Of a DNA stretch of 64,000 nt, positions 11,972-17,556 are shown one piece after another; positions within the stretch are counted from its first letter, which is position 1; each line of letters starts with the position of its first letter. The notes below the pieces were generated by a model. It worked only from the letters and a program-made list of their open reading frames with translations. It was not told where the DNA came from and did no database searches. The translations under genes were made by a program, and so were the position numbers. The stretch lies in the NCBI RefSeq assembly GCF_021033825.1, contig NZ_JAIFXZ010000017.1:1-64000 (forward strand). Direction: 5' to 3'. The stretch is from Dietzia aurantiaca. GTDB lineage: Bacteria > Actinomycetota > Actinomycetes > Mycobacteriales > Mycobacteriaceae.

Positions 11972-13721
<1,750 letters not shown>

Positions 13722-13888: not shown

Positions 13889-15163
13889 TTAGGGCTGCTC
13901 GGCGAGGGCGGCCACGATCTCGGCCCGCTGAGCCGGGTGCACGAGCGTCGGTCGGGCCTCACCGAGATGGACCAGCACCGGCGTCACCGAGGCCCAGAAG
14001 CGGCTCAGCGAACTCAGGCCCGCGTTCTCCGCGTGCGCCTGGATCCGCTCGGCGGCGGAATCGCCCGGCTGCGGCAGGTGTAGGTCCGGTCGCTTACCGA
14101 TGATCTGGTTGTCCTTGCGCTCGGAGATGACGTAGCCCAGCGCGAACCCCACCGAGCGTGGCAGGTCGCCGCAGAGCAGCACGGTTGCCTCCGGGTAGTC
14201 GTCGAGGACGTGCTCGATCGCGCCCGAGAGCTCGACCACCAGGGTGGCGAAGGCCTTCGGGTCTATTTTCCGTCCGCTCGACCCCGGGATCCACCGGCCG
14301 ACGGGCAGCTCCCACGGGCGCAGGTGCACCTCCCCGCCGACGTTCTCGACGGGGCCCGCCACGATCACCACGTCGCAGGTGTCCCGCAGTGGATACTGCG
14401 CGTCGACCTCGGACACCGGCCCGGTCGGCCCCAGCTGCAGCGACAGCCAGACCCGCTTCACCTCGTGGCGGTCGACGCGTGGCTCCACGACGGTCGTCAG
14501 AGTGATGTCCGGGTCGGGCGTCTCGTGGTGGGTGGCCCAGTCGCGCGACGACCACTCGTCGTAGCCATCGTCGAAGTACACCGTCCGCATCCCGGTGTCC
14601 CCGCCCGGGATTCGCGTCGACCGCGGCTCCTCCGGCACTTCGGCGAGCGAGGTCCGCTCCCGCAGCAGGACGTCGTAGCCCACCGATAGCGCGGCGGGGA
14701 ACGAGAGATTGGGGGCGAACAGGTAGCCGGTGGCCTCGTCGTCGTCGTTCATCGCGCGTTCCAACTCGTCGGACACCCGCGCGACGTCGGCGCGCAGGTC
14801 CAGGACGTCACCCACCGCGCCGAACCAGCCGGTGGCCGTGCGGAAATCGAGGCTGCGCGCCCGGGCCATGTCCATCGCGCCCCGAAGGTGATCCGCGGAG
14901 GCGGCCGGCAGCAGGCGCAGGTAGTACAGCGTGCCGTTGCGGTTGATCATCCAGTGCCGCAGCGCCATCATCGCGATCAGGAGTCCGGCGGAGCCCAGGA
15001 ACCACGCCAGGCGCGGCAACGACGTGCAGTGGTGCGACCAGAGATCCGGGACACCGGAGATGGTGCAGGAGCCGTCCGCGCTAATGACGTCATCCGCCAC
15101 GAGGCCGCCGAACGCGGTGGTCAACGCGATGGTGACGGCGATGAGGGTTTCCACGACGAGCAT
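13889..15163 (-). CDS. two-TM SAVED-domain-like protein
   Basis: A 424-residue protein. Two membrane helices lie at about residues 3-24 and 51-70, followed by a long cytoplasmic part. The C-terminal half (about 240-390) resembles the SAVED cyclic-nucleotide sensor of CBASS defence: a strand VWLSLQLG, then a helix and the diagnostic stretch LLCGDLPRSVGFALGYV (compare the family's strand-Pro-helix 'AVPxxxAxxLG' element), followed by NQIIGKRPDLHL. The layout recalls TM-SAVED effectors (Cap14 type). No CD-NTase, Cap2/Cap3 or nuclease is adjacent, so a defence role is not established. Start ATG 15163 has TACCTT 6 nt upstream. Assignment is by eye and moderately sure. Confidence 0.55.
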   Translation of the reverse strand: MLVVETLIAVTIALTTAFGGLVADDVISADGSCTISGVPDLWSHHCTSLPRLAWFLGSAGLLIAMMALRHWMINRNGTLYYLRLLPAASADHLRGAMDMARARSLDFRTATGWFGAVGDVLDLRADVARVSDELERAMNDDDEATGYLFAPNLSFPAALSVGYDVLLRERTSLAEVPEEPRSTRIPGGDTGMRTVYFDDGYDEWSSRDWATHHETPDPDITLTTVVEPRVDRHEVKRVWLSLQLGPTGPVSEVDAQYPLRDTCDVVIVAGPVENVGGEVHLRPWELPVGRWIPGSSGRKIDPKAFATLVVELSGAIEHVLDDYPEATVLLCGDLPRSVGFALGYVISERKDNQIIGKRPDLHLPQPGDSAAERIQAHAENAGLSSLSRFWASVTPVLVHLGEARPTLVHPAQRAEIVAALAEQP

Positions 15164-15242: not shown

Positions 15243-16715
15243 ATGACACGAGCGACCTCGCCAGTGCTCCGACTACTCGTGGCGCTCGTCGGCGCCGCGC
15301 TGTTCCTGCTCTCGGCCGGGCACCTCGCCGGCGGCCCCGCGGCACGGGCCCAGGCGCCCGCTCCCGCGCCGGCTCCAGCCGAGACCGCGCCCGCACCCTC
15401 CGACACCGCGCCCGCGACGACGGTGTCGGTGGGCGTCACCGACCGCGCGGGACTGCTGTCGGACGGCGATGACGACCTGCTGCGCACCGAGACACCGCGG
15501 ATCGACTTCCCGCCGCAGGTGCGGCACGTCGAGTACCTGGTCTTCGACGACGGGGGCAGCAATCTCAACGACACGACCCTCGAGTTCGCCGAGGACGAGC
15601 GTCCGGACCTGCTGGCAGAGGACCGGAAGAAGTGGGCGCCGGGGACGCTGATCGTGTCCAACGATGCCGAGGCGCGCGACGTCGGCATCTACTGCGGCGA
15701 CGACGTGTGCGTGGCCATGGACCTCTTCGAGGGATCGCACCTGGACGGCTCGCTCGAGGCGATGAAGGACCCGATGCGGCGCGACAACACCGCCGTCGGA
15801 CTGCTCGCCGGGGCGAAGGCCGCCGCCGATCCCACGGTCCTCGCGCCCGAATCCGAGGGCATGCCGTCCTGGCTGCCGTGGGCGCTCGGCGGCGCGGGAG
15901 TGGTGGGTGCGGGCGCCATCGGTGCTGCCGTGGCGGGCTCTCGCAAGAAGAAGGCCGCCACGGCGCGGGAGCGCTACGACCGGGTCTCTCGCGAGTACGG
16001 GCGGATCGCGGGCGAGCTCGGCGGGCTGGACGTCCGCGCCAACTCCCTACGGTCACCGCTGGCCGACGACGAGCTGCGTGGGCAATGGGCCGACGTGCGG
16101 GACCGGTTCCTCGAGGTGGACGCGATCATGGGCCGGATCGGCGACCTCCGGCCCGAGTCCACGGACGCCGAGTTCCGGGCGGCGGCCGCCGACATCGAGA
16201 CCGCCCACACCACCGTCGACCAGATGGATACGGCGGAGAAGAACATCGATCAGCTTTTCCGCATGGAGCAGGGCGATGCCGACGTGCGGCGCCGCCAGCT
16301 GGGCGAGCTCCGCGAGGACATGGGCGCCGCCGCGCTGGGTGCCGAGGACGAGAGGCTGTCGTCCGAGGCCAGGGCGCTGGAGGCCCGAGCCGACGACTTG
16401 GCCCGGGACACCGGCGCCACCGACTTCATGGACCGCTACGCCCGGTTGGTCGTGGACTACCGGCTGGTCGTCGAGGCCATCCGCGAGCGCGAGATGTCGG
16501 ACGTCGAGGCCGCCGCGGACGCCGGCGACCGCCACGCGCCGCGGCTGTACGACCGCGACTGGCGCGCGGGCTACGGCTACAACGGCTTCGTGCCGTTCTA
16601 CGTGGCCTCGAGCTGGCACTCCCACGACGTGCAGGCGGCGCAGGCGTCGAGCTCCACGAACACCGGGTACTCGAACGCGTCGTTCTCCGGCGGAGGCGGG
16701 TCCAGCGGGTACTGA
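15243..16715 (+). CDS. exported TPM/DUF5129-type membrane protein
   Basis: A 490-residue protein. An N-terminal signal segment (about 9-30) is followed by an Ala/Pro linker and a TPM-like extracytoplasmic domain (about 60-190), starting VTDRAGLLSD and including WAPGTLIVSND and IYCGDD. One membrane helix follows (about 205-225) ending in Arg-Lys, then a charged, coiled-coil-rich cytoplasmic part (240-420) and a Gly/Ser-rich tail (FSGGGGSSGY). This matches the actinobacterial DUF5129 architecture. TPM domains associate with membrane-protein repair, but the function of this family is unknown. It is divergent from the SAVED-like gene, sharing a 79-bp promoter region. Confidence 0.65.
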   Translation: MTRATSPVLRLLVALVGAALFLLSAGHLAGGPAARAQAPAPAPAPAETAPAPSDTAPATTVSVGVTDRAGLLSDGDDDLLRTETPRIDFPPQVRHVEYLVFDDGGSNLNDTTLEFAEDERPDLLAEDRKKWAPGTLIVSNDAEARDVGIYCGDDVCVAMDLFEGSHLDGSLEAMKDPMRRDNTAVGLLAGAKAAADPTVLAPESEGMPSWLPWALGGAGVVGAGAIGAAVAGSRKKKAATARERYDRVSREYGRIAGELGGLDVRANSLRSPLADDELRGQWADVRDRFLEVDAIMGRIGDLRPESTDAEFRAAAADIETAHTTVDQMDTAEKNIDQLFRMEQGDADVRRRQLGELREDMGAAALGAEDERLSSEARALEARADDLARDTGATDFMDRYARLVVDYRLVVEAIREREMSDVEAAADAGDRHAPRLYDRDWRAGYGYNGFVPFYVASSWHSHDVQAAQASSSTNTGYSNASFSGGGGSSGY

Positions 16716-16833: not shown

Positions 16834-17556
16834 TCAGCGCTCGACGATCTCCACCGACTCGATGGTGTGCGTGGTCGACGGGGCGCCCTGTGGGCTGCCG
16901 TCGGACTCGATCGACGTGACCGTCTCCATGCCCTCGGTGACGGTGCCGAACAGGCTGTAGCTCGGGGGCAGCGAGACGCCCGAGTCGCCGGTGACGATGA
17001 AGAACTGCGAGCCGTTGGTGTCGGGGCCGGCGTTGGCCATGGCCATGGAGCCGATCTCGTACTCGCCCGCCGCGGGGAGCTCGTCGTCGAACTCGTAACC
17101 CGGGCCACCCGCTCCCGTGCCCTGCGGGTCGCCGCCCTGGATCATGAAGCCGGGGATCACGCGGTGGAACGTGACGCCCTCGTAGAACTTGTTGCGGGCC
17201 AGGAAGACGAAGTTGTTCACCGTCTCCGGGGCCTTGTCCTCGAGCAGGTCGACGGTGACCGCGCCGGCGTCCGTGGTGATGACCGCCGAGTAGTCGACAC
17301 CCGGGGTCAGACACATCGGGGGAGCGGAGGCGAAGTCCGTGGCCCGCTCGTCCGCGCCCTCGGCGGGCGGACACTCGACGGTCGCGTCGCCGCTGTCGGG
17401 TTCGGCGGCCGCGGTGGAGGCGCCACCCCCGGACTCGGCTGCCGGGGTGGGCTCGTCCGAGCTGCAGCCGGCGAGGGCCAGCGGGGTGGCCAGGGCGAGC
17501 ACTCCCAGTGCGGCGCGGAGGGTCGGACGAGGACGGGCGTGGGTGTGGATGCGCAT
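16834..17556 (-). CDS. peptidyl-prolyl cis-trans isomerase (cyclophilin) lipoprotein
   Basis: A 240-residue cyclophilin exported as a lipoprotein. The signal peptide ends in the lipobox LAGC (Cys about 30), followed by an Asp/Glu/Ala-rich linker. The cyclophilin domain (about 85-240) shows FHRVIPGFMIQGGDP and the FxxxxGDxxF-type core NGSQFFIVT. It catalyses prolyl isomerisation at the outer face of the membrane, probably helping exported proteins fold. ATG 17556 follows TAAGTT by 6 nt. Divergent from glfT2. Confidence 0.9.
   Translation of the reverse strand: MRIHTHARPRPTLRAALGVLALATPLALAGCSSDEPTPAAESGGGASTAAAEPDSGDATVECPPAEGADERATDFASAPPMCLTPGVDYSAVITTDAGAVTVDLLEDKAPETVNNFVFLARNKFYEGVTFHRVIPGFMIQGGDPQGTGAGGPGYEFDDELPAAGEYEIGSMAMANAGPDTNGSQFFIVTGDSGVSLPPSYSLFGTVTEGMETVTSIESDGSPQGAPSTTHTIESVEIVER

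Follow-up and report, generated by a model that had tools for sequence, protein, structure and literature searches.

Among the described systems closest to the Dietzia protein reported here are the Cap14/TM-SAVED effectors of CBASS, represented by the PADLOC SAVED_TM profile and by the PDB entries 9om7 (BtCap14), 9wq2 and 9wq3 (3TM-SAVED). According to excerpts of PMC10419184, Cap14 exerts its toxicity on the inner membrane by oligomerising. Cap1, to which our protein can be likened by description, contains two TM helices, and its pore opens on cA4 (PMC12642688, in part). In the Panoptes system, the membrane effector OptE is kept inactive by a nucleotide that is made constantly, and some mCpol operons reportedly encode 2TM-SAVED proteins (PMC12657218, in part). 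OptE, too, has two membrane helices and a domain that senses nucleotides, but this domain is a beta-barrel and not SAVED. In the excerpts of PMC12657218 and PMC10419184, SAVED effectors act with a dedicated nucleotide synthase; the portion of PMC12657230 covered here contains nothing on SAVED. CARF homologues are also plentiful outside CRISPR-Cas (PMC12669027, in part), and orphans of the wider family are therefore perhaps not rare. The literature on Dietzia and CBASS and on orphan SAVED/CD-NTase proteins that we searched does not describe the gene, and CARF classification work may cover related orphans.

Unlike the genes of Cap14 and CBASS, the Dietzia gene has no adjoining CD-NTase, and the models searched found no match in its genome; the gene is kept at one chromosomal site and its product carries paired loop cysteines. 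The protein is like the membrane CARF/SAVED proteins of type III CRISPR systems in the profiles that it matches and in the type III loci, with III-D-like Cas5/Cas7 profiles, in which its non-Dietzia relatives lie, whereas Cas10 and RAMP were both matched in 0/23 Dietzia genomes. We favour, with a probability of roughly 60%, the reading that it is an orphan TM-SAVED-type effector or sensor.

The gene, its neighbours and the anatomy of its product

The gene was studied in a window of 64,000 nucleotides from Dietzia aurantiaca (contig NZ_JAIFXZ010000017.1, positions 1 to 64,000), whose genome, G000, groups with Dietzia. A preliminary description had placed an open reading frame at 13889..15163, with glf, a DUF5129 gene and glfT2 as neighbours. 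Frame and neighbours were both confirmed: the frame runs on the minus strand from an ATG at 15163 to a stop at 13889 and encodes 424 residues, and glfT2 lies beyond a cyclophilin-type isomerase gene, which we add to the locus. The features are as follows.

12522..13721, plus strand: glf, UDP-galactopyranose mutase, a flank outside the feature (PF03275, E 1.1e-80)
13889..15163, minus strand: orphan two-TM SAVED-family protein, 424 aa (open reading frame and PADLOC profiles)
13976..14539, minus strand: C-terminal SAVED half, about residues 209-396
14624..14947, minus strand: N-terminal cytosolic half, residues 73-180 (63/108 residues invariant in 15 Dietzia copies)
14954..15013, minus strand: second hydrophobic membrane segment, about residues 51-70 (KD 2.05 over residues 52-68)
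15014..15103, minus strand: loop between the membrane segments, residues 21-50, holding Cys33 and Cys46
15104..15163, minus strand: first hydrophobic membrane segment, residues 1-20 (KD 1.92 over residues 1-19)
15243..16715, plus strand: DUF5129 gene, a flank (PF17173, E 1.2e-21)
16834-17556, minus strand: cyclophilin-type isomerase gene, between DUF5129 and glfT2

The SAVED-family gene is convergent with glf and divergent from DUF5129, with 79 bases between the two starts. Its codon-position GC (0.70/0.48/0.92) is similar to that of the neighbours. A promoter and terminator scan gave no promoter-like site, and the sole terminator-like site was inside the gene.

The two N-terminal membrane helices of the preliminary description correspond to two hydrophobic segments in KD hydropathy. 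The structure model has a helix at residues 2-19 (low confidence) for the first segment and one at 49-76 (mostly low confidence) for the second. The second segment is short in the D. aurantiaca copy: its KD is 2.05 over 17 residues and 1.51 over 19, and the best 19-residue KD of the soluble part, 1.39, is just below the latter value. In the other 14 Dietzia copies it has a KD of 1.42-2.37 over 19 residues. Both segments are found in 15/15 aligned Dietzia copies, the second being weak in an extra copy in genome G190. The loop between the segments would lie outside the cell, since basic residues come after the second segment. Cys33 and Cys46 in this loop are invariant in all 15 aligned copies, and no other cysteine is. 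In three type III relatives of the protein both are missing, the aligned loop being free of cysteine.

Residues 73-180 are the most conserved soluble part of the protein, with 63 of 108 residues invariant in the 15 copies versus 44 of 121 in residues 233-353. The model gives this half no confident fold, with a pLDDT below 50 across most of it. A local alignment matches the two cytosolic halves, with 8 of 500 shuffles equally good, lending weak support to a possible SAVED-like internal repeat.

Relationship to TM-SAVED proteins

The PADLOC profile SAVED6--SAVED_TM (PDLC02014) matches residues 2-416 of the protein with E 1.7e-73 over profile positions 6-312 of 314. Further PADLOC matches are to C3a205 (E 2.6e-30) and to membrane-associated CARF (E 9.4e-17). 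The SAVED_TM profile matches all 16 members of our profile A1, which include three type III relatives. With a full-length SAVED_TM match and N-terminal TM helices, the protein belongs by sequence with TM-SAVED proteins. The preliminary description had likened its C-terminal region to SAVED, a relationship supported by the profile and, for the C-terminal half, by alignment with SAVED structures. In a VIA-align 2 comparison, ranks 1-20 are all SAVED structures, aligned to the C-terminal half; rank 21 is an esterase with a Z of 5.8, equal to that of the last SAVED row. Neither comparison pointed to the absence of a SAVED fold or to another family, a result that covers the C-terminal half.

Pfam (E up to 1) and NCBIfam found no family in the D. 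aurantiaca protein, SAVED included, and Pfam found SAVED in two of the 16 A1 members (best E 0.27). Two of the 16 also match a small model, 'Unk_01'. A PDB sequence search with the protein returned five matches, the best with E 0.6, with no SAVED entry and no Cap14 among them; one with profile A1 returned none. A PF18145 search of G000 gave no match, but it carries no weight, since its positive control also matched nowhere. Alignments of A1 with two TIR-SAVED proteins in hhalign were weak (probability 3.0 and 5.6%, E 0.015 and 0.007).

When 201 genomes of the family were searched, drawn from a larger group and including 16 Dietzia, relatives were found in three of the 185 others (G191, G031 and G028), and in all three the relative adjoins type III CRISPR genes. 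Among the neighbouring proteins scanned, these were Cas10, III-D-type Cas5 and Cas7, and Cas6 in G191 (four proteins), and III-D-type Cas7 in both G031 (one protein) and G028 (two proteins). G028 has two relatives in one locus (L035, 8037-11722), in opposite orientation beside the type III CRISPR genes; there the Unk_01 domain is a separate small protein whose gene adjoins one of the two. Across 396 genomes of the phylum, G000 was the sole match to profile A1, with four candidates scored per genome in the rows listed. PDLC02014 gave four further weak matches in the same genomes. One, in G428, is to the C-terminal part of the profile, in a protein that has a Pfam SAVED match (E 6.5e-15) and a weak TIR match; those in G225, G240 and G362 looked, on inspection by eye, like chance matches. 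The plasmid, viral-contig and phage collections searched yielded no relative. A search of a contig collection with the protein found relatives in two Dietzia (83 and 85% identity) and in one Actinomycetales MAG (69%).

Distribution, loss and selection in Dietzia

The SAVED-family gene is present in 14 of 23 Dietzia genomes; among the 15 of good quality (completeness 90% or more) the count is 11. Eight of the 23 are below 90%, G201, G202 and G207 being 64-83% complete. The contigs of G203 and G204 stop at or within glf, and these two genomes, taken as non-carriers in the count, are therefore uninformative on the site. The 13 carriers in which both flanks can be read all have the gene in the interval from glf to DUF5129, in the orientation opposite to those two genes. 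In the fourteenth, G206 (85% complete), it adjoins DUF5129 and the contig stops before glf.

Constant as the position is, the view of the preliminary description that the gene is fixed between glf and glfT2 is weakened. It is absent from G003, G034 and G170, in which glf adjoins DUF5129 and glfT2 is in place, and from the divergent outgroup G150, where DUF5129 is also missing at the locus. In G150, the most divergent Dietzia, the isomerase gene is gone as well and glf stands directly before glfT2 (L079). Several genomes show other arrangements. In the MAG G205 the interval from glf to DUF5129 holds a tandem pair of TM-SAVED copies that are 72% identical to each other (L040, 8694-11266; the same site in L082); this pair may be ancestral, with one copy kept in other species. 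The extra copy in G190 lies outside the glf locus (L025, 9373-10635), is 66% identical to the D. aurantiaca protein and has a third-position GC of 0.78, compared with 0.93 in its downstream neighbour. Between its isomerase gene and glfT2, G160 carries an additional DUF5129-like gene (L027, 5412-9021), 65% identical to the D. aurantiaca DUF5129; its first is 82% identical.

We compared a tree of seven neighbouring proteins with a tree of the SAVED-family protein (midpoint root). Four groups are common to both: G000, G200 and G190; G055 and G205; G127, G115, G180 and G088; and G139 and G102. Within the first group the trees disagree, joining G000 with G200 (support 0.76) or with G190 (0.94), and they also disagree on the place of G072. 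At the deepest split, G055 and G205 branch first in the neighbours' tree and the group of G000 branches first in the midpoint-rooted gene tree. This conflict would be explained by transfer, or by an ancient tandem duplication, perhaps still visible in G205, after which most lines lost one of the copies. G003 is sister to the carrier G102 (support 1.0) and G034 to the carrier G088 (0.997), and at least two losses in Dietzia are therefore likely; G170 looks like a third. Loss, the tandem duplication in G205 and the extra copy in G190 resemble the turnover of immune genes.

These losses bear on the suggestion that the protein senses envelope status, in which its two-cysteine loop would follow redox or wall state outside the cell while a former SAVED domain relays the signal or is tuned by a nucleotide. 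The constant place between glf and DUF5129, the 79 bases between the divergent starts, and a cysteine pair that is invariant in Dietzia and missing from the type III relatives all favour such a role, and the pair and the constant site keep it in play. However, the gene is on the opposite strand to both glf and DUF5129 and thus outside their operon, and its relatives outside Dietzia sit in CRISPR loci. The arabinogalactan genes and DUF5129 are independent of the gene, since G003, G034 and G170 retain them without it. This weakens the envelope link, and a gene that can be lost while the wall genes stay in place is not likely to be essential to the envelope; its repeated loss fits a conditional, immune-like role better. 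We regard an envelope sensor as unlikely.

Where the gene is present, it is maintained. All 15 aligned Dietzia copies are open with no internal stop, and the sixteenth, in G206, is open over the stretch read. The dN/dS (NG86) is 0.12-0.45, with a median of 0.28, over all 105 pairs among the 15 copies, and the gene is under purifying selection. That a decaying, functionless remnant would also be lost repeatedly, and would have no partner among those searched for, is in its favour; intact copies under purifying selection argue against it, and we consider it improbable in the extreme.

Signal source and probable function

The preliminary description called the protein solitary, and this held for the classes searched: G000 has no match to SMODS (PF18144), Cas10 (PDLC00919), RAMP (PF03787) or mCpol (PF18182), nor to one PADLOC cyclase model. 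A CD-NTase in operon or genome, which would mark CBASS, was thus not found in G000 with PF18144 and that one model. Across Dietzia, Cas10 and RAMP, the marks of a type III locus, were each matched in 0/23 genomes, eight of them below 90% complete; the positive controls of each matched 4/14. mCpol, the mark of Panoptes, was also matched in 0/23, with a weak control that matched only Thermotoga, below the cut-off. Because the partner genes searched for were not found, we do not file the protein under a CBASS or type III module. The alternative offered by the preliminary description, a defence effector whose synthase is elsewhere, may still hold, but no synthase of the searched classes turned up elsewhere in G000.

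A synthase could be supplied from time to time: CBASS or type III systems that arrive and leave on mobile DNA would then use the protein in trans. SMODS is matched in three of the 23 Dietzia genomes, and two of these, G190 and G115, are carriers. But 12 of the 14 carriers have no SMODS match, the third SMODS-bearing genome, G170, is a non-carrier, and candidate effectors are encoded at the cyclase loci themselves, in G170 a TIR-SAVED protein and in G115 a patatin-like one, recognised by eye. Use in trans by such systems is in our view very unlikely. In the G190 locus two SMODS matches lie close together (the three loci are L084, L085 and L086).

Alternatively, the protein could respond to a housekeeping cyclic dinucleotide, for instance c-di-AMP from a DAC synthase; an excess would activate it or, as with OptE, the nucleotide would hold it off until removed by a phage. 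The DAC domain of c-di-AMP synthases is found in all 11 good-quality carriers, G150 lacks both DAC and the gene, and the 2TM-SAVED partners of mCpol and the inhibitory signalling of OptE (PMC12657218, in part) offer precedents. However, DAC is nearly universal (14/15 good-quality genomes, 19/23 overall) and its presence therefore tells little. The three good-quality non-carriers G003, G034 and G170 also have DAC, which thus marks availability and not linkage; the carrier G206 (85% complete) has no DAC match; and mCpol is matched in none of the 23 Dietzia genomes, by a weakly controlled search. We consider this reading quite unlikely. G150 is the sole good-quality Dietzia genome without a DAC match.

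Our preferred reading remains an orphan TM-SAVED effector or sensor. By analogy with Cap14 and Cap1, the protein most likely works as TM-SAVED effectors do: two helices would anchor it in the membrane, the cytosolic SAVED-type domain would be expected to bind a cyclic nucleotide, and binding would lead to assembly of the protein and to opening or damage of the membrane. The signal could come in trans, from a mobile or unrecognised synthase, or from a housekeeping nucleotide. The SAVED_TM match, the SAVED structures at ranks 1-20, the type III neighbours of the relatives, the immune-like turnover and the dN/dS values count for this reading. Against it count the lack of a Pfam SAVED match, the weak hhalign result with TIR-SAVED, the low pLDDT of the N-terminal half, the esterase tie at Z 5.8, the tree conflict at the deepest split and the lack of relatives in the plasmid, viral-contig and phage collections. 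Of the preliminary interpretation as a whole, the SAVED relationship, the membrane segments and, for the classes searched, the solitary state are supported; the fixed position and the link to the envelope are weakened.

An antiviral role of the protein is plausible, and it probably originated in antiviral signalling and was then kept at one chromosomal site across much of Dietzia. Effectors that have lost their synthase should decay, and the persistence of this one therefore hints at a changed role. One speculative form of such a role, which we hold to be quite improbable, is a guard protein kept on the chromosome: a TM-SAVED receptor rewired to a housekeeping nucleotide (e.g. c-di-AMP), with a putative extracellular disulphide loop as a second input, that would need no dedicated synthase and would fire when the nucleotide pool is upset by phage or by stress on the wall.

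A receptor that is intact across the genus, at one site, with no recognised synthase provides a tractable case of how immune sensors outlive their system and of which signal such a sensor then follows. Close sister genomes with and without the gene (G102 and G003, G088 and G034) make this question directly testable.
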